Source of the DNA: Nitrospirota bacterium | Lineage (GTDB): Bacteria > Nitrospirota > Thermodesulfovibrionia > Thermodesulfovibrionales > UBA9159 | Assembly: GCA_023382175.1 (NCBI GenBank) | Contig: JAMCQB010000154.1 | Coordinates: 1 to 42,687, forward strand | Length of the DNA: 42,687 nucleotides | Direction: 5' to 3' | Part shown: piece by piece, positions 1-38,747 of the stretch | Position numbering within the stretch: position 1 is the stretch's first letter | How the letters are laid out: the number at the start of each line of letters is the position of its first letter | Position numbers and translations under genes: made by a program | Notes under the pieces: model-generated | Seen by the model: the letters and a program-made list of their open reading frames with translations, nothing else | Database searches by the model: none | What the model was told of the DNA's origin: nothing

Positions 1-753
1 TTTTTGTTCTTGTCTCTTTTAGTCTTGCTGCTGCCGGTCCCATACTCTTACGGTTTCAGCACGAAGGGCGAAGACTGTTCAAAATGTCATACCCTTACGA
101 AGGATGACGCGGCTGCCCTGCTGAAGGACCTGATTCCGAACGTGAAGGTACTGGAAGTCAGGGTGAGTCCTGTAAAAGGAATCTGGGAGGTGGATATCGA
201 CTCAGGCGGCAGGAAGGGGCCTACCTATATTGATTTTTCGAAGAAGTACCTTGTCGCCGGATCGATCGTCGATATTAAGGAGAAGAAGAACCTCACCCAG
301 GAGAGGCTCAGCGAGATCAACAAGGTGGATGTGTCCCAGATCCCTCTGTCAGATGCCCTTGTGATGGGCGACAAGGATGCAAAACATAAAGTCATTGTCT
401 TTGACGACCCCGATTGCCCCTACTGTGCAAAGCTTCATCAGGAGATGAAGCAGGTCATAGCAGAGAGGAAAGATATCGCCTTTTATATAAAGATGTTCCC
501 CCTGCCGATGCACAAAGGGGCATATGATAAGGCGAAGGCCATTGTGTGTGAAAAATCCCTCGCCCTTCTTGAGGACGCCTTTGCGGGCAAAGAGCTGCCG
601 AAACCGAAATGCGAGACCAAGGTAATCGACGAGAATATTAATCTGGCTCAGAAGCTTGGAATCAGTGGCACCCCTGCGCTGATCCTCCCTGATGGGAAAG
701 TCATCCCGGGATATAAAGATGCCAAGGGCATCATGGAAATGATCGGGAATTGA
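1..753 (+). CDS. DsbC-like thiol:disulfide isomerase with N-terminal CxxCH (5' partial)
   Basis: The reading frame is open to the window edge and begins inside a hydrophobic signal-peptide core (LSLLVLLLPV) with no basic n-region, so the true start lies upstream and the TTG at 4 is probably not it. The C-terminal half is a thioredoxin-fold domain of the DsbC/DsbG type: active site CPYC at about residues 138-141 of the track protein and the cis-proline loop SGTPALI near the end. An N-terminal region of about 90 residues could be the dimerisation domain. A CSKCH motif follows the signal peptide and matches the c-heme attachment signature CxxCH. Expected role: periplasmic disulfide isomerisation or reduction, possibly of apocytochromes. 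Family call is confident; heme binding is inference. Confidence 0.82.
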   Translation, partial: FLFLSLLVLLLPVPYSYGFSTKGEDCSKCHTLTKDDAAALLKDLIPNVKVLEVRVSPVKGIWEVDIDSGGRKGPTYIDFSKKYLVAGSIVDIKEKKNLTQERLSEINKVDVSQIPLSDALVMGDKDAKHKVIVFDDPDCPYCAKLHQEMKQVIAERKDIAFYIKMFPLPMHKGAYDKAKAIVCEKSLALLEDAFAGKELPKPKCETKVIDENINLAQKLGISGTPALILPDGKVIPGYKDAKGIMEMIGN

Positions 754-823: not shown

Positions 824-910
824 GCCGAAGTGGCGGAACTGGCAGACGCGCCAGGTTCAGGGTCTGGTGGTCGCAAGGCCGTGCGGGTTCGAGTCCCGCC
901 TTCGGCACCA
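824..910 (+). tRNA. tRNA-Leu (anticodon CAG)
   Basis: The acceptor stem GCCGAAG pairs with CTTCGGC, with discriminator A and an encoded CCA end. The anticodon arm CCAGG-TTCAGGG-TCTGG gives anticodon CAG. A long variable arm marks a class II tRNA, and the T-arm reads GCGGGTTCGAGTCCCGC. It lies convergent to the protein-only RNase P gene 82 bp away. Confidence 0.97.
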
Positions 911-992: not shown

Positions 993-1676
993 CTAAAGAG
1001 GAGATTGGTCCGGTTCCTTTTCAGAGAGCAGTTTTGTTCTTTTTATTGCTCCCATCAGGTAGTCCTTGAATTTATCGGGGAAGAGCCACTGTATCCCGAG
1101 TTTTTCAGCCCAGAGAATCAAGCCCTGATCGGCGGAAATCAAAAGGGCATCCAGTTCCATGGCGAGGAGGAGCAGGTCCACATCCTCTTTGCTGTCGATG
1201 ATTCCCTCCCGCAACGCCTCCCTGTATTTTCTCCTCAGATCCTGAATAATCTCCTCGGGTTTTTTCTTCTCCGCACTTCTCACTGCTTTCTCCGCAATCC
1301 GTAATCCCTTGTTCACTCTCTCCCTCAAATCTTCTATCAGTTCATAGAGAAGGAAGGCGGGAACTTTGAGTTCATGCCTTTTGGGCGGTTTCTGGTGCAG
1401 GATCACGAGGAGGTCCCCGGGAATCCTGTCTTTTTCCACAAAATGGAGAAGCTCCTCGAATATGGACGGAGGCATATAAAATTCCAGGATGTGGATCTGC
1501 GCTGCAAGAAACAGGAAGGTCTCCAGGGCTTCTGTGGGCGTGCTCCCAAGATTTGTCCGCACATCGGGATTGACAAAAAGACTGGTATCCAGAACAACTC
1601 TCTGGGGTGGTGAAGAAAGGATTACGGGTGGCGAAGAATCATCGTCTCCCTCGTGCTCTTTACCCTCATTGTTCAT
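993..1676 (-). CDS. HARP-type RNA-free ribonuclease P (PIN-domain)
   Basis: A PIN-like metallonuclease of the family once called UPF0278/RNA ligase partner and now known as HARP (homolog of Aquifex RNase P), which removes tRNA 5' leaders without an RNA subunit. Visible signatures: VVLDTSLFVNPDV at the N-terminus, EFYMPPSIFEE, the helical arm region VNKGLRIAEKAV, REGIIDSKEDVDLLLLA and LISADQGL. With the start at ATG 1676 (227 aa), aspartates 30, 161, 165 and 183 keep the spacing I recall for the Aquifex active site (7, 138, 142, 160). The longer track start would overlap lapB, so I moved it. It is the last gene of the run from 5058, 19 bp after lapB. About 25 extra N-terminal residues look disordered. 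Confidence 0.88.
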   Translation of the reverse strand: MNNEGKEHEGDDDSSPPVILSSPPQRVVLDTSLFVNPDVRTNLGSTPTEALETFLFLAAQIHILEFYMPPSIFEELLHFVEKDRIPGDLLVILHQKPPKRHELKVPAFLLYELIEDLRERVNKGLRIAEKAVRSAEKKKPEEIIQDLRRKYREALREGIIDSKEDVDLLLLAMELDALLISADQGLILWAEKLGIQWLFPDKFKDYLMGAIKRTKLLSEKEPDQSPL

Positions 1677-1695: not shown

Positions 1696-3009
1696 TCAGG
1701 CCTTGCAGACTCCGTAGAGATTGAACTGATAGGTATCCCACTCCTTGCAGTTGGGGCATCTCCCCGACCAGTCATCGGAGGAGTAACCGCAGTTGTAGCA
1801 ACAATAGGGGAGCCTGAACGGTTTCTTTATGGCGATCACCTTTTTAAATTCTTCAACAGCCTTTTCGCACTGCTGCCGCCTCAGGTAGATGTTCCCCAGA
1901 AGCTGATGCAGTTCAGGATACGGAGCGCTGCTCGCGTCCACCGTAGCGAGGGTGTCGTATGCATCATCCAGCATCTCAAGCCGGTAAAAGAGTTTCCCCA
2001 TAAAGAAGCGCAGGGCCTGGTTCTGGGGTTCCTTCAGGGTGCTGTTCCGGTAAAGGGTTATCAGTCTCCCGGGTTCGCCGAGATTAATGAGAAGGTCTTC
2101 CATCCTCGCCAGGATTATGTTGGACGATGTCTGTTCAAACCCCCTTTGGAGAAGAGCGACAGCATCCTCGGATTCCCCTTCCCTGAGCATTGCCTCGGCA
2201 AGACCGAGGTAGGCGGGCACAAAGTCCTTGTCTAACCGGAGTACTGTGGTAAAGGCTTTTTTTGCCTTTTCCAGTGCAGCGTTCTCGATGCTGTATCTGC
2301 CCTGTTCGTACTTATATCCTAGGAGATTCTTCTGCTCTCTCTGACGGTCCTTCTCATTGTGCTCGCATTTGATTATGGTCCTCTGGATGGCGATGATATC
2401 GTCCCACCTCTCGCTTTTTTCAAGGAGTGAACGCTTCCGGTAAAGGGCGGTGAGGTTATCCGGGTCCAGCCTGAGGATTTCATCCAGATACAGGTTTGCC
2501 TCCGACCCTCTGCCGGTCTTCCCCATCATCCTCTCCAGGGAGAAGAGCACCTCGATATTCTGAGGCTGTATATCCCTGGCCCTCTTATAGTAGCTCAGGG
2601 CTTTCTGATAGTCTTCGTCCCCTGCGGCGATATCGCCGAGTCTCAGAAGGGCGTCCATGTGTCCCGGTTCTTCCTGGAGTATGCTCTCGAGAGCGGACCG
2701 GGCCTCATCTTCATTGTCGGCAAGGATAGCGTTCAGCGCCCTTGAGTAGAGCTCCTGGATATGCATATCCCGTTTCTGCTTGCGCTGATGCTGCCTGCTG
2801 TCAATGAACCGTTTGGTATCCCTGAAGAAGAAATAGACGAGCATTACGGCAGCCCCTACCGCAAAGGACAGGAGGATGAGGGCTATTTTCGGCATCTCAT
2901 ATGCCGTTTTTGGGGCGACCGTGAGGGTGATGGTCTCTTCGTTCAGGACGGCAAAATAGCCGAGGGCCAAAAGCAACAACACAAAAAGTAAGAGGGCAAA
3001 CTTACCCAT
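1696..3009 (-). CDS. lapB: LapA-LapB fusion (DUF1049 domain, TPRs and rubredoxin-type zinc ribbon)
   Basis: The first ~70 residues carry two membrane segments around a short ALNEE...APKT-like stretch, as in LapA (DUF1049). A long TPR solenoid then runs to about residue 395, and the C-terminus is the rubredoxin-like metal domain of LapB/YciM (CYNCGY...CPNCKEWDTY). In enterobacteria LapB controls lipopolysaccharide synthesis by directing FtsH to LpxC, and LapA is a separate protein from the neighbouring gene. Here both parts are one 437-aa polypeptide, so the protein should be anchored by two N-terminal helices with the TPRs in the cytoplasm. Its start overlaps the rsfS stop (ATGA), which indicates translational coupling. 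The LapB assignment is strong; the function is carried over from family knowledge. Confidence 0.85.
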   Translation of the reverse strand: MGKFALLLFVLLLLALGYFAVLNEETITLTVAPKTAYEMPKIALILLSFAVGAAVMLVYFFFRDTKRFIDSRQHQRKQKRDMHIQELYSRALNAILADNEDEARSALESILQEEPGHMDALLRLGDIAAGDEDYQKALSYYKRARDIQPQNIEVLFSLERMMGKTGRGSEANLYLDEILRLDPDNLTALYRKRSLLEKSERWDDIIAIQRTIIKCEHNEKDRQREQKNLLGYKYEQGRYSIENAALEKAKKAFTTVLRLDKDFVPAYLGLAEAMLREGESEDAVALLQRGFEQTSSNIILARMEDLLINLGEPGRLITLYRNSTLKEPQNQALRFFMGKLFYRLEMLDDAYDTLATVDASSAPYPELHQLLGNIYLRRQQCEKAVEEFKKVIAIKKPFRLPYCCYNCGYSSDDWSGRCPNCKEWDTYQFNLYGVCKA

Positions 3010-3413
3010 CAGCGGGAATACCTTTCATCCTTGGATGCGTGTGCTTCCTTTTGTCGGCTCATCTGTCCACCCTCTTCAACGTCGATTCTCGGGGCATCGA
3101 GCCACAGTTTCTCCAGTTCATAGTAAGCCCTTGTCTGGTCTTCAAAGATATGGACGATGACGTCGCCATAATCCATGAGCACCCAGTGCGCATACCGCAG
3201 TCCCTCAATGGATAACGGTTTCAGCGCATGTTTCACAAATTCGGACTCGATATGTTCTGCGATTGCTTTCACCTGGGTTGTGCTTTCGCCGGAGCAGATA
3301 ACAAAATAATCCGTGAAGACGGCCAAGCCCTTCAGTTCAAGGACAAGGGTATTTTTCGCTTTCTTTGCTAATGCTGACCGTGCTGCTTCCAGGGCCTTAT
3401 TCTTAGCTTCTAA
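3009..3413 (-). CDS. rsfS: Ribosomal silencing factor RsfS
   Basis: RsfS binds uL14 on the large subunit and blocks subunit joining. The core GLAVFTDYFVICSGEST, followed by YAHWVLMDYGDVIVHIF, is characteristic. The ORF track starts at a TTG inside this core (3326), but the frame stays open upstream and encodes typical RsfS N-terminal sequence (EAKNKALEAARSALAKKAKNTLVLELKG). Between the upstream in-frame stop and that TTG there is no ATG, GTG or TTG. A good Shine-Dalgarno (GGAAGGGAG) sits 9 nt before a TTA codon at 3413, where a TTG would be expected; a CTG at 3392 is another option. I give the homology-defined 5' end. The gene overlaps nadD by 4 bp and lapB by 1 bp. Confidence 0.85.
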   Translation of the reverse strand, partial: LEAKNKALEAARSALAKKAKNTLVLELKGLAVFTDYFVICSGESTTQVKAIAEHIESEFVKHALKPLSIEGLRYAHWVLMDYGDVIVHIFEDQTRAYYELEKLWLDAPRIDVEEGGQMSRQKEAHASKDERYSR

Positions 3414-4084
3414 AGGTGATCACTCCCTTCCTTATAGAGGTTATGAGAAATTATAAAGGATTCCACACTCTCTGGCAACAGGTATTTTATGCTCATCCCC
3501 TGTTTCACAAGCCTTCGGATAACAGTCGCGGATATATCCAAGGGGGTGACGTTCATGAGGAAGACCTCTCCGCCATTCTCAAGGACGGTCCTGTATACGT
3601 TGAGGTGACCGCTTTCCAGGGCTGAAAATGCCTCTGCATCCACGGCGACCCGGGAAGAAAGCCGCATGAAACTGAAGCCCGGCCGTGACACCACCACGAA
3701 ATGAGTGAGTTCCATGAGTCTTTCCGGATGATACCATAATGGGATATCGAGAAATGCATCGATCCCCAGAATGAAATAGAATTTCTTCCCGGGATGCATC
3801 TCCCGCAACGCAATGAGCGTATCCACCGTGTAAGACTTCCCGGTCTTTTTGCACTCAATATCAGAGATTTCGAAGGACGGATTCGACGCTATGGCAAGCC
3901 TGGTCATCTCGTGCCGGTATTCTGCTGAAGCCAGTTCCAGATCCTTCAGCGGAGGATTCCCCGAGGGAATAAAGAGTATCTTTTCGAGGCCGATACGCTC
4001 CCTCACTTCCTCGGATACCCTGAGGTGTCCATAATGCACGGGATTAAATGTCCCGCCCAGTATACCGATCCTGCCTTTGCCCAT
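3410..4084 (-). CDS. nadD: Nicotinate-nucleotide adenylyltransferase NadD
   Basis: Transfers AMP from ATP to nicotinate mononucleotide in NAD synthesis. The nucleotidyltransferase signature GGTFNPVHYGHL is at the N-terminus (HxGH-type), SYTVDTL lies mid-protein, and the C-terminal ISATVIRRLV matches the ISSTxIR motif. Length 224 aa is normal. nadD followed by rsfS is a common bacterial pairing. The gene starts 5 bp downstream of the methyltransferase stop, so it belongs to the same transcription unit. Confidence 0.95.
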   Translation of the reverse strand: MGKGRIGILGGTFNPVHYGHLRVSEEVRERIGLEKILFIPSGNPPLKDLELASAEYRHEMTRLAIASNPSFEISDIECKKTGKSYTVDTLIALREMHPGKKFYFILGIDAFLDIPLWYHPERLMELTHFVVVSRPGFSFMRLSSRVAVDAEAFSALESGHLNVYRTVLENGGEVFLMNVTPLDISATVIRRLVKQGMSIKYLLPESVESFIISHNLYKEGSDHL

Positions 4085-7448: not shown

Positions 7449-8033
7449 TTATCTTCTCCTTACCTGTTGGCGCACATGATAAAGTTTCTCTGTGAACCCG
7501 CCTTCTTCCAAGAATTGTTTTTCCAGCTGACGCAGTTGCTGGTCAAGCAGATAATTTGCCTGATGAATCATGCAGATAAGGGCATTGGCAGCCACTTCAG
7601 GAGACGCTTTTTCAATATAGGTCTCATAAGTCTCATATGACCTATTCTTTTCCCAAGCAAGCTTTCGAATAGTTTGCGCCTGCGGATGCTCCTTCTCCCA
7701 CAGCAGCAGTCCCCGCTGACGCAAGAAATCATGGTAGTCGAGCAGTAGTTCTTCCAGACTTGCGCGGGCTACGCCGATCAGTTTGAGTTCGCTTTTCTTT
7801 GAAGTGCCGGACACCATACTGCCTTCGGCAATATTCTGCTTGCCGCTACGCGAAGCCTGTACCATCTGGTCATGAGTGCGCGAGCGTTTATCAATAAAGA
7901 GATTACAAAATGCAGTTGTGGCATCATAGATGATTTCAGCAGTCTGATAAGATTTCAGACTGCGATATCCTCCGTGGGGACTGATAAGAGCTGATCTTGT
8001 CTCTTCATTCTTTATGTTCATTATGTCGTTCAA
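7449..8033 (-). CDS. Four-helix-bundle protein (23S rRNA IVP / Avd-like superfamily)
   Basis: A 194-aa all-helical protein. Segments HDQMVQASRSGKQNIAEGS and SELKLIGVARASLEELLLDYHDFLR are hallmarks of the four-helix-bundle family that includes proteins encoded in 23S rRNA intervening sequences and relatives of the Avd proteins of diversity-generating retroelements. A C-terminal extension (NALICMIHQANYLLDQQLRQLEKQFLEEGGFTE) fits the four-helix-bundle suffix type. No reverse transcriptase is nearby, so it is free-standing. The start is TTG at 8033 with AGAGGA just upstream, or ATG at 8021. Function of such lone copies is unknown. Confidence 0.75.
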   Translation of the reverse strand: MNDIMNIKNEETRSALISPHGGYRSLKSYQTAEIIYDATTAFCNLFIDKRSRTHDQMVQASRSGKQNIAEGSMVSGTSKKSELKLIGVARASLEELLLDYHDFLRQRGLLLWEKEHPQAQTIRKLAWEKNRSYETYETYIEKASPEVAANALICMIHQANYLLDQQLRQLEKQFLEEGGFTEKLYHVRQQVRRR

Positions 8034-9299: not shown

Positions 9300-11456
9300 C
9301 TACTCAAGACCGTATGCTTTGATCTCTTCGTCACTGAGCATTTCATTTGGAACAGTGCGATAGTGCTTCTCGTCCTTGATCGAAATCTCGCCTTCACTTC
9401 GTTCGAACTCGAACAGGGCGATCAAGCCACCCTCCATAAACTGAGCAGCAACTGGTCGGCAGATGAGCGACGGGAATTTGGCTTCACAAACCGCCACATC
9501 TTGTTCAATCTGCACTATTCCTATTTGTTCATTTCTCCCTTTCGCTTGCACGGGGATTGCAAACTGTTGTCCTTGTTTATTAACGCCGACATAGATCTCA
9601 TCAGTCTCTACCTGGCCCATACCCGGAGCGGTCGTTCGCAAATGGCTCTGAAGCGAATAGCATGTAACCCCTAAAAAGGTGTCAATGAGGCGATTGTAGC
9701 GAAGGATTGCGAGCAAAGCCTGCTCATCATTTAAGGCATAGCGGCGAATGATTTCCGGTGTCGCATCCAACACTTTTATCTTTGTAAGCCTGGGATTAGG
9801 GGTGATTCGATGAATTTGACTTTTTGAGAATTGATACTTGCCGCGCCCAATTGAACGAATAATCCATTCTTCGCCTTTGGAAAGAAGATCCCTGATCCTC
9901 CCAGGCAGCTCATTTCGATACCTATATGAATAGATAATGTCTCCCAGGTTCTTAGGGAGTTTTATTTTAAGTCTCTTGGATGCTTTTTCGAATTCTTCGC
10001 GATCAAAAGTTACTTCAGTGGTTCCTTCTGAATAGTTTTTGAAGAATACTTCTTCAATTAACACATCATAGCGATTTTTTTCCTCTGACATACCTTCCTC
10101 CAATGGAGATGATTCAATCTTAAGAGACCGATTACTGTCAAACCCCTTCCATTCGAACATAACGACCTCTTCGCGCAACTGCTGCCTGGTTGCGGTGGCC
10201 AGCCTCGTCCTAAAGAGATCAATTCCCAACACTCTATAACCAAGCTCTGTTGCAATGTCGGCCAGTAGCTCACCCGTCGGTATCAGTACCTGCAAATATG
10301 ACGCCTGGTCTCCAACGACATACGCCAACTTGGCTCCGGGTTTTAGTATGTTCCTCAAGTCTGCCAAATGTCGCTTAATGCCGCCAAAATATAATCTTGC
10401 CACCCGATGGTAAAGCCTCTCGAATCCAGAGGTTTTATTTAATGCGATGCGTCTTCGTTCAATCTCACGTGCAAGACGATCAATTTTACTACCTGTGGGT
10501 ATCAGGTCATCGTCCCTGTCAGCAGCAAACACGTTTCGCGTATTCGACCTGAGTAAGCTTTCCTTTAATTGTCGCAAGTCTTGTCTGCTCCGTAAAAAGC
10601 CCAACAGAGTGGATTCAAGGCGTGTAGTTCGCGTATAATCCTTTTCGTTCGGATATGGGGGCGAAGTTATTACTGCGTCCACAAATGGATTCTCGAATCT
10701 GCTGCCACAATCCCTGGCATCCAACATCAGACACGTTGTCTGTGCGCATTCTCTGTCACGCACGGAAGCCAAGTCGTCACACATCTCAGTCACCTTGCGA
10801 AACCAGTACTCGAAGACCTTTGCATCGCTCTTCTTGCCGTGACTGACACCTACTTCAGGACCGAACTCAAGGTTGCTGGCTTCGTGGACCGATGTGTGAG
10901 CAAATGCTAACCGCAACAAATCTTTGATACGATTATCCTCTATAATGGCTATTTCATCACGTAGAATAAGGCACTTGTGAAGCGGTAACGGGCTGATTGA
11001 ACCTTGCAGAACCACAGACTCTTCGTCTTGTGAAAACCTCCTCAACTGCACGGATTCCCTGTCAAGGATATCTTTAGCGCGCTCGCAAACAGCCGCTGCG
11101 GTATCTCGGATACGAACTGGATCAATATCCCACGTTGTTTTCACTTGTGACGCATACCATGCAACGGGATTAGTTTCAAAACCAACAGCTGGGATTCCCT
11201 GTTTTTTGGCTTCAACCAAGGTCGTACCCGTCCCGCAAAACGGATCGAGTATTGTCATATCGGAGGTCAGTTCCAAAACGTGAATGTAATAAGCGACAAG
11301 ATGAGGGGGAAAAGAGAGAACAAATCGATACCAGTCATGAAATTGTCTATCTGAAGCCGTCATGCGGTTATTTCTGGAATCGCTCGGGTCAAGAATATCC
11401 AGAAAGGTGGCAGCATCTGTTCCAAGGTTTTGCAGTGTCAACTGTTTGATATTCAT
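9300..11456 (-). CDS. Single-chain DNA methyltransferase / PD-(D/E)xK-like nuclease fusion
   Basis: Residues ~40-455 form an amino-group DNA methyltransferase: SAM motif I ILDPFCGTGTTLVEAK (D71), then VGFETNPVAW, and the catalytic motif IV TSPPYPNEKDYTR at ~264. Motif I precedes motif IV with about 190 residues between them, room for a target-recognition region. Residues ~470-718 form a second domain with TDEIYVG followed by FAIPVQAKG (D619, Q637-A-K639), a D...QxK variant of the PD-(D/E)xK nuclease core. This fits a type II restriction-modification enzyme on one chain. It heads a five-gene operon. Methyltransferase is certain, nuclease is probable; the recognition site is unknown. Confidence 0.85.
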   Translation of the reverse strand: MNIKQLTLQNLGTDAATFLDILDPSDSRNNRMTASDRQFHDWYRFVLSFPPHLVAYYIHVLELTSDMTILDPFCGTGTTLVEAKKQGIPAVGFETNPVAWYASQVKTTWDIDPVRIRDTAAAVCERAKDILDRESVQLRRFSQDEESVVLQGSISPLPLHKCLILRDEIAIIEDNRIKDLLRLAFAHTSVHEASNLEFGPEVGVSHGKKSDAKVFEYWFRKVTEMCDDLASVRDRECAQTTCLMLDARDCGSRFENPFVDAVITSPPYPNEKDYTRTTRLESTLLGFLRSRQDLRQLKESLLRSNTRNVFAADRDDDLIPTGSKIDRLAREIERRRIALNKTSGFERLYHRVARLYFGGIKRHLADLRNILKPGAKLAYVVGDQASYLQVLIPTGELLADIATELGYRVLGIDLFRTRLATATRQQLREEVVMFEWKGFDSNRSLKIESSPLEEGMSEEKNRYDVLIEEVFFKNYSEGTTEVTFDREEFEKASKRLKIKLPKNLGDIIYSYRYRNELPGRIRDLLSKGEEWIIRSIGRGKYQFSKSQIHRITPNPRLTKIKVLDATPEIIRRYALNDEQALLAILRYNRLIDTFLGVTCYSLQSHLRTTAPGMGQVETDEIYVGVNKQGQQFAIPVQAKGRNEQIGIVQIEQDVAVCEAKFPSLICRPVAAQFMEGGLIALFEFERSEGEISIKDEKHYRTVPNEMLSDEEIKAYGLE

Positions 11457-36604: not shown

Positions 36605-36613
36605 CGCTGTGAT

Positions 36614-36619
36614 ATTATA
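36614..36619 (-). promoter_or_regulatory. Candidate -10 for the symporter in a 19-bp divergent gap
   Basis: TATAAT (minus strand, 36619-36614) lies only 9 nt before ATG 36604, and the two divergent start codons are 19 bp apart. The -35 would fall inside the PAP2-GT gene; no good hexamer is seen. Confidence 0.35.
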
Positions 36620-36623
36620 TAGC

Positions 36624-38747
36624 ATGCCTGAATGGATAACACAATTGGATACCGCATTGTTTTTCTTTCTCAACAGGGACTGCCACAATAAACTGTTCGA
36701 TCTTCTCATGCCTGTTATTACCCACCGGGCGAGTCTCATCGTACTGCCGTTCCTTGTTCTTTTTCTTTTGCAGGAAAAGAGGAAAGCGCTGGCGGTCTTC
36801 GGGGTCGCCTTTTTTTCGATACTGCTGGCTGACGGGTTGAGCAATGTCCTGAAACATCTCATGGAGAGGCAGAGGCCATGTAATGTCCTGGAGAACGTCC
36901 ATCTTCTCGTGGGCTGCACCAAGTCCTTCTCCATGCCCTCAAACCACGCCGCCAACGCCTTTGCCTTTGCTACCCCGTTCCTTTTCATGACAAAGAACCG
37001 TCTGCGGTATCCCCTTCTCTTTATTGCCGTGCTTGTTTCCCTTTCACGGGTAGTTGTGGGCGTTCATTATCCCGGAGATGTCCTTGGCGGCGCTCTGGCA
37101 GGCGGTCTCTCGGCCGGAGCCGTTATGTATCTTTATGCATGGGCGGAAAGAAGGTTCAGGGACAGGCCATATGCCACCGTGATGTATCTGTTCCTTCTCG
37201 GTCTGAGCCTGTTCCGCATGTATTACCTCTCCTTCGGTCCCCTTGACCTCAGCCCTGATGAAGCGCATTACTGGGAATGGTCACGGAGGCTGGATTTAAG
37301 CTATTACTCCAAGGGCCCCATGATTGCCTACCTTATTGCCCTTTCGACTTCCCTGTTTGGTGATACGGTGTTTGGAGTGCGGTTCCTTGCCGTTGTCCTT
37401 TCGCTCTTAAGCAGCATCATTCTGTACAGGCTCGGCAAGGAGATGTATAACGAGCGGGTGGGAGCGGCCTCCGCCATCCTTTTCCAGGTCATACCCCTTT
37501 TCTCCGCCTTCGGCGTCCTCTTCACCATAGACTCTCCCTTTCTCTTCTTCTGGATACTCTCCCTGTATCTCTTCTGGAAAGCGGTGAATAACCCCCCTCT
37601 TATCCCCCCTTATTTAAGGGGGGAAGCAGGGGGGTTATCGAAAGGGGGCAAGGGGGGAATTGACAGGAATGTGCCGGGCATGAATCACTCATCACTTTTA
37701 TATTGGCTCCTCCTCGGCATTTCTGTCGGTCTCGGGCTCCTTACGAAATATACCATGGCCTTTTTTTACCTCTGTGCGCTCTGTTTTCTTGTCTTTTCAG
37801 TTCACCACAGAAAGCTTCTCAGGACTGCTGCGCCTTATGGAGCGTCGCTCATAAGTTTCATTGTCTTCAGCCCGGTGGTCCTCTGGAACGCGCAGCATGA
37901 CTGGGTGACGCTGAGACATACCGCAGGCCAGGCACATATTGCAGAAGGACTCCGGATATCGGTGATGAGTTTTATTGAGTTTGCAGGGTCTCAGTTCGGT
38001 GTCGTTACGCCTGTTCTCTTTGTCCTGATTTTATTTGCTTTATGGAAGGCGAGAGGCAAAGGCCAGGACACGTCCGGCTCCCATGGTAAATTCCTTTTCT
38101 GGTTCTCAGCGCCTGTAATTGTCTTTTTCCTTTTAAAGAGTCTCCAGGGGAAGGTCCAGGCAAACTGGGCAATGATGGGATATATCACCGGCCTCATTGC
38201 CTTCTCGGAGATATTCATCAACCAATGGGTAAGATACAGACCCGCCATAAAGAAAATCATCATCATCGGCCTTGCCCTTTCCCTGCTGTTGACTGCTGTC
38301 GCCCATTATCCATCGAAGTTTCATCTCCCCGTTAAACTTGATCCATCAGCCAGACTTAAGGGCTGGAATGACCTTGGGAAAGAGGTGGATGGTATATATT
38401 CTGATATGAGGGAGAAGGGACAGGTGTTTATCTTTTCCGACAGCTACCAGATCTCCAGCGAACTTGCCTTTTACGTGAAGGGGCATCCCATCACGTACTG
38501 CGTGAATCTTGGAAGGAGGATGAACCAATATGACCTCTGGCCTGATTTCGGGAATTTTATCCATTCCAACGGGATTTTTGTTACAATAGGCGATACAGAA
38601 TTGAACCCCGGGATCAGGAGTGCCTTCCATGGCTATGAAAAGCGACTCCTGAAAGTGTACGACAAGGACAGGCTTTTGAGGGAATTTTCGATCTTTCTCT
38701 GTTACGACTTTCAGGGCATGACGAAGGAAACAATAGGAAAATACTGA
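36624..38747 (+). CDS. PAP2 phosphatase / GT-C glycosyltransferase fusion
   Basis: Residues ~1-175 are a membrane PAP2 phosphatase with all three motifs: KHLMERQRP, SMPSNHAAN and SRVVVGVHYPGD. Residues ~190-700 are a GT-C glycosyltransferase of the PMT/ArnT type, with the DEAHYWEWS motif in the first loop, then multiple helices, LLTKYTMAFFYL and a periplasmic C-terminal domain. A Gly/Pro-rich segment (PPLIPPYLRGEAGG) in a loop near residue 325 comes from a palindromic repeat. GT-C enzymes use polyprenyl-phosphate sugars and PAP2 enzymes dephosphorylate lipid carriers. Start ATG 36624; GTG 36609 is the alternative. Confidence 0.88.
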   Translation: MPEWITQLDTALFFFLNRDCHNKLFDLLMPVITHRASLIVLPFLVLFLLQEKRKALAVFGVAFFSILLADGLSNVLKHLMERQRPCNVLENVHLLVGCTKSFSMPSNHAANAFAFATPFLFMTKNRLRYPLLFIAVLVSLSRVVVGVHYPGDVLGGALAGGLSAGAVMYLYAWAERRFRDRPYATVMYLFLLGLSLFRMYYLSFGPLDLSPDEAHYWEWSRRLDLSYYSKGPMIAYLIALSTSLFGDTVFGVRFLAVVLSLLSSIILYRLGKEMYNERVGAASAILFQVIPLFSAFGVLFTIDSPFLFFWILSLYLFWKAVNNPPLIPPYLRGEAGGLSKGGKGGIDRNVPGMNHSSLLYWLLLGISVGLGLLTKYTMAFFYLCALCFLVFSVHHRKLLRTAAPYGASLISFIVFSPVVLWNAQHDWVTLRHTAGQAHIAEGLRISVMSFIEFAGSQFGVVTPVLFVLILFALWKARGKGQDTSGSHGKFLFWFSAPVIVFFLLKSLQGKVQANWAMMGYITGLIAFSEIFINQWVRYRPAIKKIIIIGLALSLLLTAVAHYPSKFHLPVKLDPSARLKGWNDLGKEVDGIYSDMREKGQVFIFSDSYQISSELAFYVKGHPITYCVNLGRRMNQYDLWPDFGNFIHSNGIFVTIGDTELNPGIRSAFHGYEKRLLKVYDKDRLLREFSIFLCYDFQGMTKETIGKY
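37588..37665. repeat. G/C-rich palindromic repeat inserted in the GT-C reading frame
   Basis: An outer inverted repeat AACCCCCCT (37590-37598)/AGGGGGGTT (37628-37636) encloses a perfect inner hairpin, CCCCCCTTA/TAAGGGGGG with a 2-nt loop (37604-37623), and further G tracts follow to 37657. Translated it gives PPLIPPYLRG...GGLSKGGKGG, a peptide seen wherever this dispersed repeat type enters genes. Confidence 0.8.

Follow-up and report, generated by a model that had tools for sequence, protein, structure and literature searches.

RNase P, the near-universal RNA-based enzyme that trims the 5' ends of tRNAs, is a textbook ribozyme, and its rnpA gene usually lies between rpmH and yidD. Why it is exchanged for a protein is an open question, and to our knowledge only a few lineages have been described that encode the protein-only form (HARP) alone. 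In the HARP of Aquifex aeolicus, Aq880, the catalytic residues are Asp7, Asp138, Asp142 and Asp160 (PMC8405995). An RNA ligase has been found in 89% of HARP genomes, for which a functional link was proposed (PMC12153264), and a few Nitrospirae genera were reported to encode only HARP, in a survey that used RnpA alone as a proxy (PMC6380272). Here, we compare these systems with a HARP locus in a stretch of 42,687 nucleotides from a Nitrospirota bacterium, referred to as the window. The locus contains the following features:

824-910, plus strand: tRNA-Leu(CAG), with encoded CCA, convergent with harp
911-992: 82-bp gap between tRNA-Leu and harp
993-1676, minus strand: harp, protein-only RNase P of 227 aa (PIN_5 / TIGR03875), assigned from profiles, alignment, PDB matches and a structure model
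1590-1676, minus strand: variable N-terminal stretch of harp, about 29 residues ahead of the first catalytic Asp
1696-3009, minus strand: lapB, TPR protein with a C-terminal rubredoxin-type Zn ribbon, directly upstream of harp
3009-3326, minus strand: rsfS, ribosomal silencing factor, part of the conserved cluster upstream of harp
3410-4084, minus strand: nadD-like cytidylyltransferase, first gene of the nadD-rsfS-lapB-harp cluster

The harp reading frame is intact on the minus strand, with 227 codons from an ATG at 1676 to a stop at 993-995. An alternative start at an in-frame ATG at 1775, to which the frame remains open, was rejected because the gene would then run into lapB, whose end is at 1696. 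The initial annotation of this DNA had identified the gene as HARP, and this is borne out by several lines of evidence. The product matches Pfam family PIN_5 (PF08745) with 8.8e-60 across profile positions 1-201 of 205, covering the whole core, and the NCBI model TIGR03875 ("RNA ligase partner protein") with 205.8 bits, at a cut-off of 95.3. Solved HARPs were retrieved from the PDB, the best sequence match being the RNA-free RNase P 7E8K (1.4e-65), and the nearest named relatives are from Nitrospirae/Thermodesulfovibrionales. PMC12153264 gives the accession PF09745 for the HARP family, but the Pfam match here is to PF08745. The active-site aspartates D30, D161, D165 and D183 are spaced by 131, 4 and 18 residues, identical to Aq880, as had been claimed; the first interval contains one alignment gap in each of the two sequences, and these offset each other. 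The residue printed as D161 in PMC8266387 is Asp160 in the structure paper on Aq880, and the spacing in the window agrees with 160. All four aspartates are invariant in an alignment of 36 HARP relatives of the order, as are S162, E164, D167 and a set of spike-region arginines. Judged by its sequence, the gene belongs to the already known HARP family.

The predicted fold agrees with this assignment. An AlphaFold model built from the 36-HARP alignment (mean pLDDT 83, pTM 0.73) retrieved only HARPs as top Foldseek matches, with a TM of 0.94 by target length to PbHARP bound to pre-tRNA and of up to 0.90 to Aquifex HARP. The two-helix spike in the PIN-like metallonuclease domain is present in the model as a hairpin of helices 107-137 and 140-156, which are its less certain part (pLDDT 60-77). 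As the protein is a PIN superfamily member and PIN_5 is placed in the VapC group, its function could alternatively be that of a PIN toxin, VapC-like or otherwise, instead of an RNase P. However, the model has a TM by query of 0.6-0.8 to HARPs versus about 0.3 to VapC4 and Nob1, it contains the spike-helix hairpin, and the gene, part of a housekeeping cluster, has neither an antitoxin-like partner nor a PADLOC match. A check for alignment to a different PIN family likewise gave HARPs as the best matches, with other PIN families scoring much lower (TM about 0.3-0.35 by query). The toxin reading is thus largely refuted and, in our view, scarcely credible.

The N-terminal extension, which the initial annotation had called unusual, does exist, but it is no meaningful peculiarity. 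This stretch varies in length and sequence even among close relatives, and in several families HARP begins only about 12 residues ahead of the first Asp. The core strand starts near residue 25 and the preceding residues are predicted to be disordered, with a pLDDT of about 62-65 and no secondary structure for residues 1-20 in the AlphaFold model. The extension is best read as a predicted disordered tail.

Whether this genome also keeps rnpA and rnpB had been raised as a question, and our searches detected neither. No rnpB was found in the window genome with RF00010 at E<=0.001, and relaxing the search to E<=10 yielded a single match of 6.9 bits, compared to a gathering score of 100. A search with PF00825 found no rnpA in the genome, where rpmH, yidD and yidC are contiguous, with 122 bp and no rnpA between rpmH and yidD; a genome of the same order, G015, has the arrangement rpmH-rnpA-yidD-yidC. 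As rnpA and rnpB are not detectable, and given the distribution across the order described below, HARP is most likely the sole RNase P of this genome. The genome is a draft of 171 contigs that is only 86.8% complete, and most HARP bacteria outside the order do possess both enzymes, so both genes might exist in the organism but fall into gaps of assembly or binning. Against this, the rpmH-yidD-yidC region is unbroken without rnpA, which is likewise missing at rpmH-yidD in five other genomes (G004, G029, G038, G012 and G022), rnpA and rnpB were not found in any of the seven sampled members of the family of the window genome (f1), and closed HARP-only genomes occur in the order. We therefore consider such gaps a very improbable explanation.

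To place this genome in context, we surveyed 150 genomes of the same order. HARP was found in 92 of them, and rnpA and rnpB in 63 each. The genomes comprise 79 with HARP only, 54 with the ribozyme only, 13 with both and 4 with none, so HARP and the ribozyme enzyme are nearly mutually exclusive, although the Fisher test of this exclusion takes no account of relatedness. HARP-only genomes come from 41 sampled genera in 9 families and include four single-contig genomes (G012, G022, G062 and G086). In two of the genomes in the class with none, G029 and G038, rpmH-yidD is present but has no rnpA, and rsfS is missing as well; as rsfS is a harp neighbour, the harp segment is missing from these assemblies. 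The other two (G097 and G128) are from ribozyme families and miss rpmH too. The idea that G029 and G038 have no RNase P at all was rejected, as assembly gaps explain their state, and a weak RF00010 match in G012 (15 bits, E 0.013) was judged to be due to chance. On a LapB tree, with LapB serving as native marker, the ribozyme state requires six changes, a count that rests on a single-gene tree. If the ribozyme form is taken as ancestral, these changes are losses. This means that the ribozyme enzyme seems to have been lost about six times within the order, in lineages that carry HARP.

These data also bear on whether HARP is an accessory nuclease here, in which case tRNA 5' ends would come from leaderless transcription or from an RNase P that is highly divergent or escaped detection. 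In vitro, not all HARPs act on pre-tRNA: as cited in PMC12153264, four other bacterial HARPs did not cleave pre-tRNA in one study, and earlier work cited there describes HARP knock-outs in two archaea without a growth effect. The CCA encoded by most tRNAs of the window genome is, moreover, unfavourable for one tested HARP. On the other hand, RF00010 found the ribozyme in 63 of the 150 members of the order and in 11 of 14 control genomes, showing that ribozyme detection works, and HARP is present in nearly every genome without the ribozyme. Five tRNA genes lie within 760 bp on one contig of the window genome (C12), and 5' leaders are expected from such tight clusters. An accessory role is thus improbable, and we maintain HARP as the likely sole RNase P.

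The gene neighbourhood of harp is conserved. In 84 of 90 HARP loci harp directly follows lapB, mostly behind nadD-rsfS-lapB, and ten ribozyme-only genomes have nadD-rsfS-lapB without harp. The adjacent tRNA-Leu(CAG) is convergent, as originally described, and separated from the HARP stop by 82 bp; the suggestion that it might be a purely accidental neighbour does not hold, since 11 loci from four families have tRNA-Leu on the downstream side of harp. Six of these have the order harp, ligase, tRNA-Leu(CAG) (G012, G011, G096, G024, G054 and G034), and five have the tRNA-Leu without the ligase (the window, G064, G080, G132 and G028). At the site of the gap at 911-992, a convergent gene for an Rnl3-type ligase is found in relatives, among them G012 and G011, and the 82 bp are too small for a ligase remnant. 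The tRNA-Leu is a recurrent and probably old neighbour of harp, and its closeness in the window would fit ligase loss. Folding of the sequence between harp and tRNA-Leu gave no sign of a structured RNA (z-score -0.02). Elsewhere in the window, positions 1-753 (plus strand) encode a DsbC-like protein whose near-N-terminal CSKCH (CxxCH) motif could bind haem, and 7449-8033 (minus strand) has a weak match, under the curated cut-off, to a 23S rRNA-intervening-sequence protein. Positions 9300-11456 (minus strand) encode a stand-alone protein of 718 aa that matches N6/N4 DNA methylase; its long C-terminal part has no Pfam match, and it is possibly a fused restriction-modification enzyme. A 712-aa ORF at 36609-38747 (plus strand) carries a PAP2 phosphatase domain at the N-terminus, fused to a PMT_2 glycosyltransferase domain.

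Searches of the window genome with PF18330 and TIGR01209 were both negative for an Rnl3 RNA ligase. In the order, the two models agree on a ligase in 26 of the 92 HARP genomes (28%), where it is nearly always adjacent to and convergent with harp. As so few HARP genomes have the ligase, and the window genome has none, HARP can do without it here. The ligase is present in 11 of 13 genomes with both enzymes versus 15 of 79 HARP-only genomes. We do not claim that ligase loss tracks ribozyme loss, as there are only 3-4 phylogenetically independent pairs, correction for relatedness removes the link and the sign test is uninformative.

In two genomes of family f10 (G063 and G103), HARP and the ligase lie beside topA/dprA and not beside lapB, and the native nadD-rsfS-lapB cluster has no harp. 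Neither rnpA nor rnpB was detected in these genomes. Misbinning of the locus is unlikely, because both genomes share the same arrangement. Their LapB falls within f10 (support 95), and its grouping with f12 was rejected (AU p 1.5e-5), whereas their ligase groups with f12 and f7 (support 99) and a branch with support 99/99 places their HARP on the side of f1, f7 and f12. The simplest reading is that the HARP and ligase pair was transferred into the f10 genomes, after which the ribozyme enzyme was lost. The HARPs of f1 are nearer to f12-type HARPs than f1 LapB would predict. A test of f1 HARP monophyly gave an AU p of 0.15, and a grouping of f1, f2 and f11 HARPs, named after the trees were seen, was rejected (p 0.0037). 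The f1 HARP may therefore itself be of f12-like origin by transfer. Plasmid-borne HARPs were found only among haloarchaeal relatives, at 35-40% identity.

CCA is encoded in 32 of the 38 tRNA genes of the window genome, and CCA slowed the Hydrogenobacter HARP, the one HARP tested, tenfold (PMC10652100). If HARP is the sole RNase P and its substrates are CCA-bearing tRNAs, either the sequence in which the 3' and 5' ends are processed or the preference of the enzyme should differ here, a prediction that is directly testable with purified proteins. Most genomes of the order have about 30-50 CCA-encoding tRNA genes. In a pattern search, almost none, near the control level, were found in G009, G022, G062 and G086 (all f9), G031, G104 and G148. 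We rejected the possibility that HARP-only genomes avoid encoded CCA, because, in contrast to f9 with almost none, about 35-49 CCA-type matches above control were counted in the f1 and f2 genomes sampled. The count varies among ribozyme-only genomes too, and it seems that encoded CCA disappeared on several occasions, whichever type of RNase P is present.

The explanation that we favour, and hold to be highly probable, is that HARP is the only RNase P here, that rnpA and rnpB were lost about six times in lineages of the order carrying HARP, and that HARP arrived horizontally with its RNA-ligase partner in at least one family, whose recipients now have no ribozyme enzyme. For the window HARP, we infer catalytic activity, an oligomeric state and a sole role in tRNA 5' maturation: its subunits would join through the spike helices into a dodecamer, the oligomer on which HARP activity depends, bind pre-tRNAs and remove the 5' leader by metal-dependent cleavage at a PIN active site formed by D30, D161, D165 and D183. 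The order shows numerous replacements of differing depth, genomes with both enzymes and one horizontal case, and owing to this variety the order of events (HARP gain, rnpA/rnpB loss and ligase loss) is readable from genomes. We think it reasonably probable that the order represents a replicated natural experiment, with about six independent ribozyme losses, one of them after receipt of a mobile HARP and ligase pair, and with a HARP that would have to cope with pre-tRNAs already bearing CCA, unlike the Hydrogenobacter enzyme. The repeated replacement is the part that deserves specialist attention. As many relatives are from groundwater, fen, mine and sediment samples according to their record titles, this suggests that heat or salt is not needed for ribozyme replacement.

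Among known systems, Aq880 (PDB 7F3E, 8KD9) has the same fold and the same four aspartates as the window HARP, at about 46% identity, and the window protein is longer by about 23 residues at the N-terminus. The host of Aq880 likewise misses rnpA/rnpB, with HARP as sole RNase P and rpmH-yidD-yidC without rnpA; the window HARP, by contrast, comes from a Nitrospirota host in which most tRNA genes encode CCA. The closest solved relative, at about 55% identity, is PbHARP from a Planctomycetes bacterium (PDB 7E8K, 7E8O), thus from a different phylum; its structure was solved with pre-tRNA and its fold matches the window model with the TM of up to 0.94 by target length given above. The adjacent convergent pair of HARP and Rnl3 ligase (PMC12153264) also occurs in relatives of the window genome (for example G012, G011 and G050), but the ligase is missing here and in 66 of the 92 HARP genomes, in contrast to the 89% co-occurrence reported from a different genome sampling. 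HARP-only Nitrospirae, of the same phylum and likewise with HARP but no RnpA, were already reported (PMC6380272), and the window genome adds to them. That survey named a few genera with RnpA as proxy and did not search for the RNA, whereas here 41 sampled genera include genomes with neither rnpA nor rnpB. What seems to be new is the approximately six ribozyme losses, the horizontal move of HARP with an RNA ligase into one family, the fixed nadD-rsfS-lapB-harp cluster and a ligase co-occurrence of 28%.
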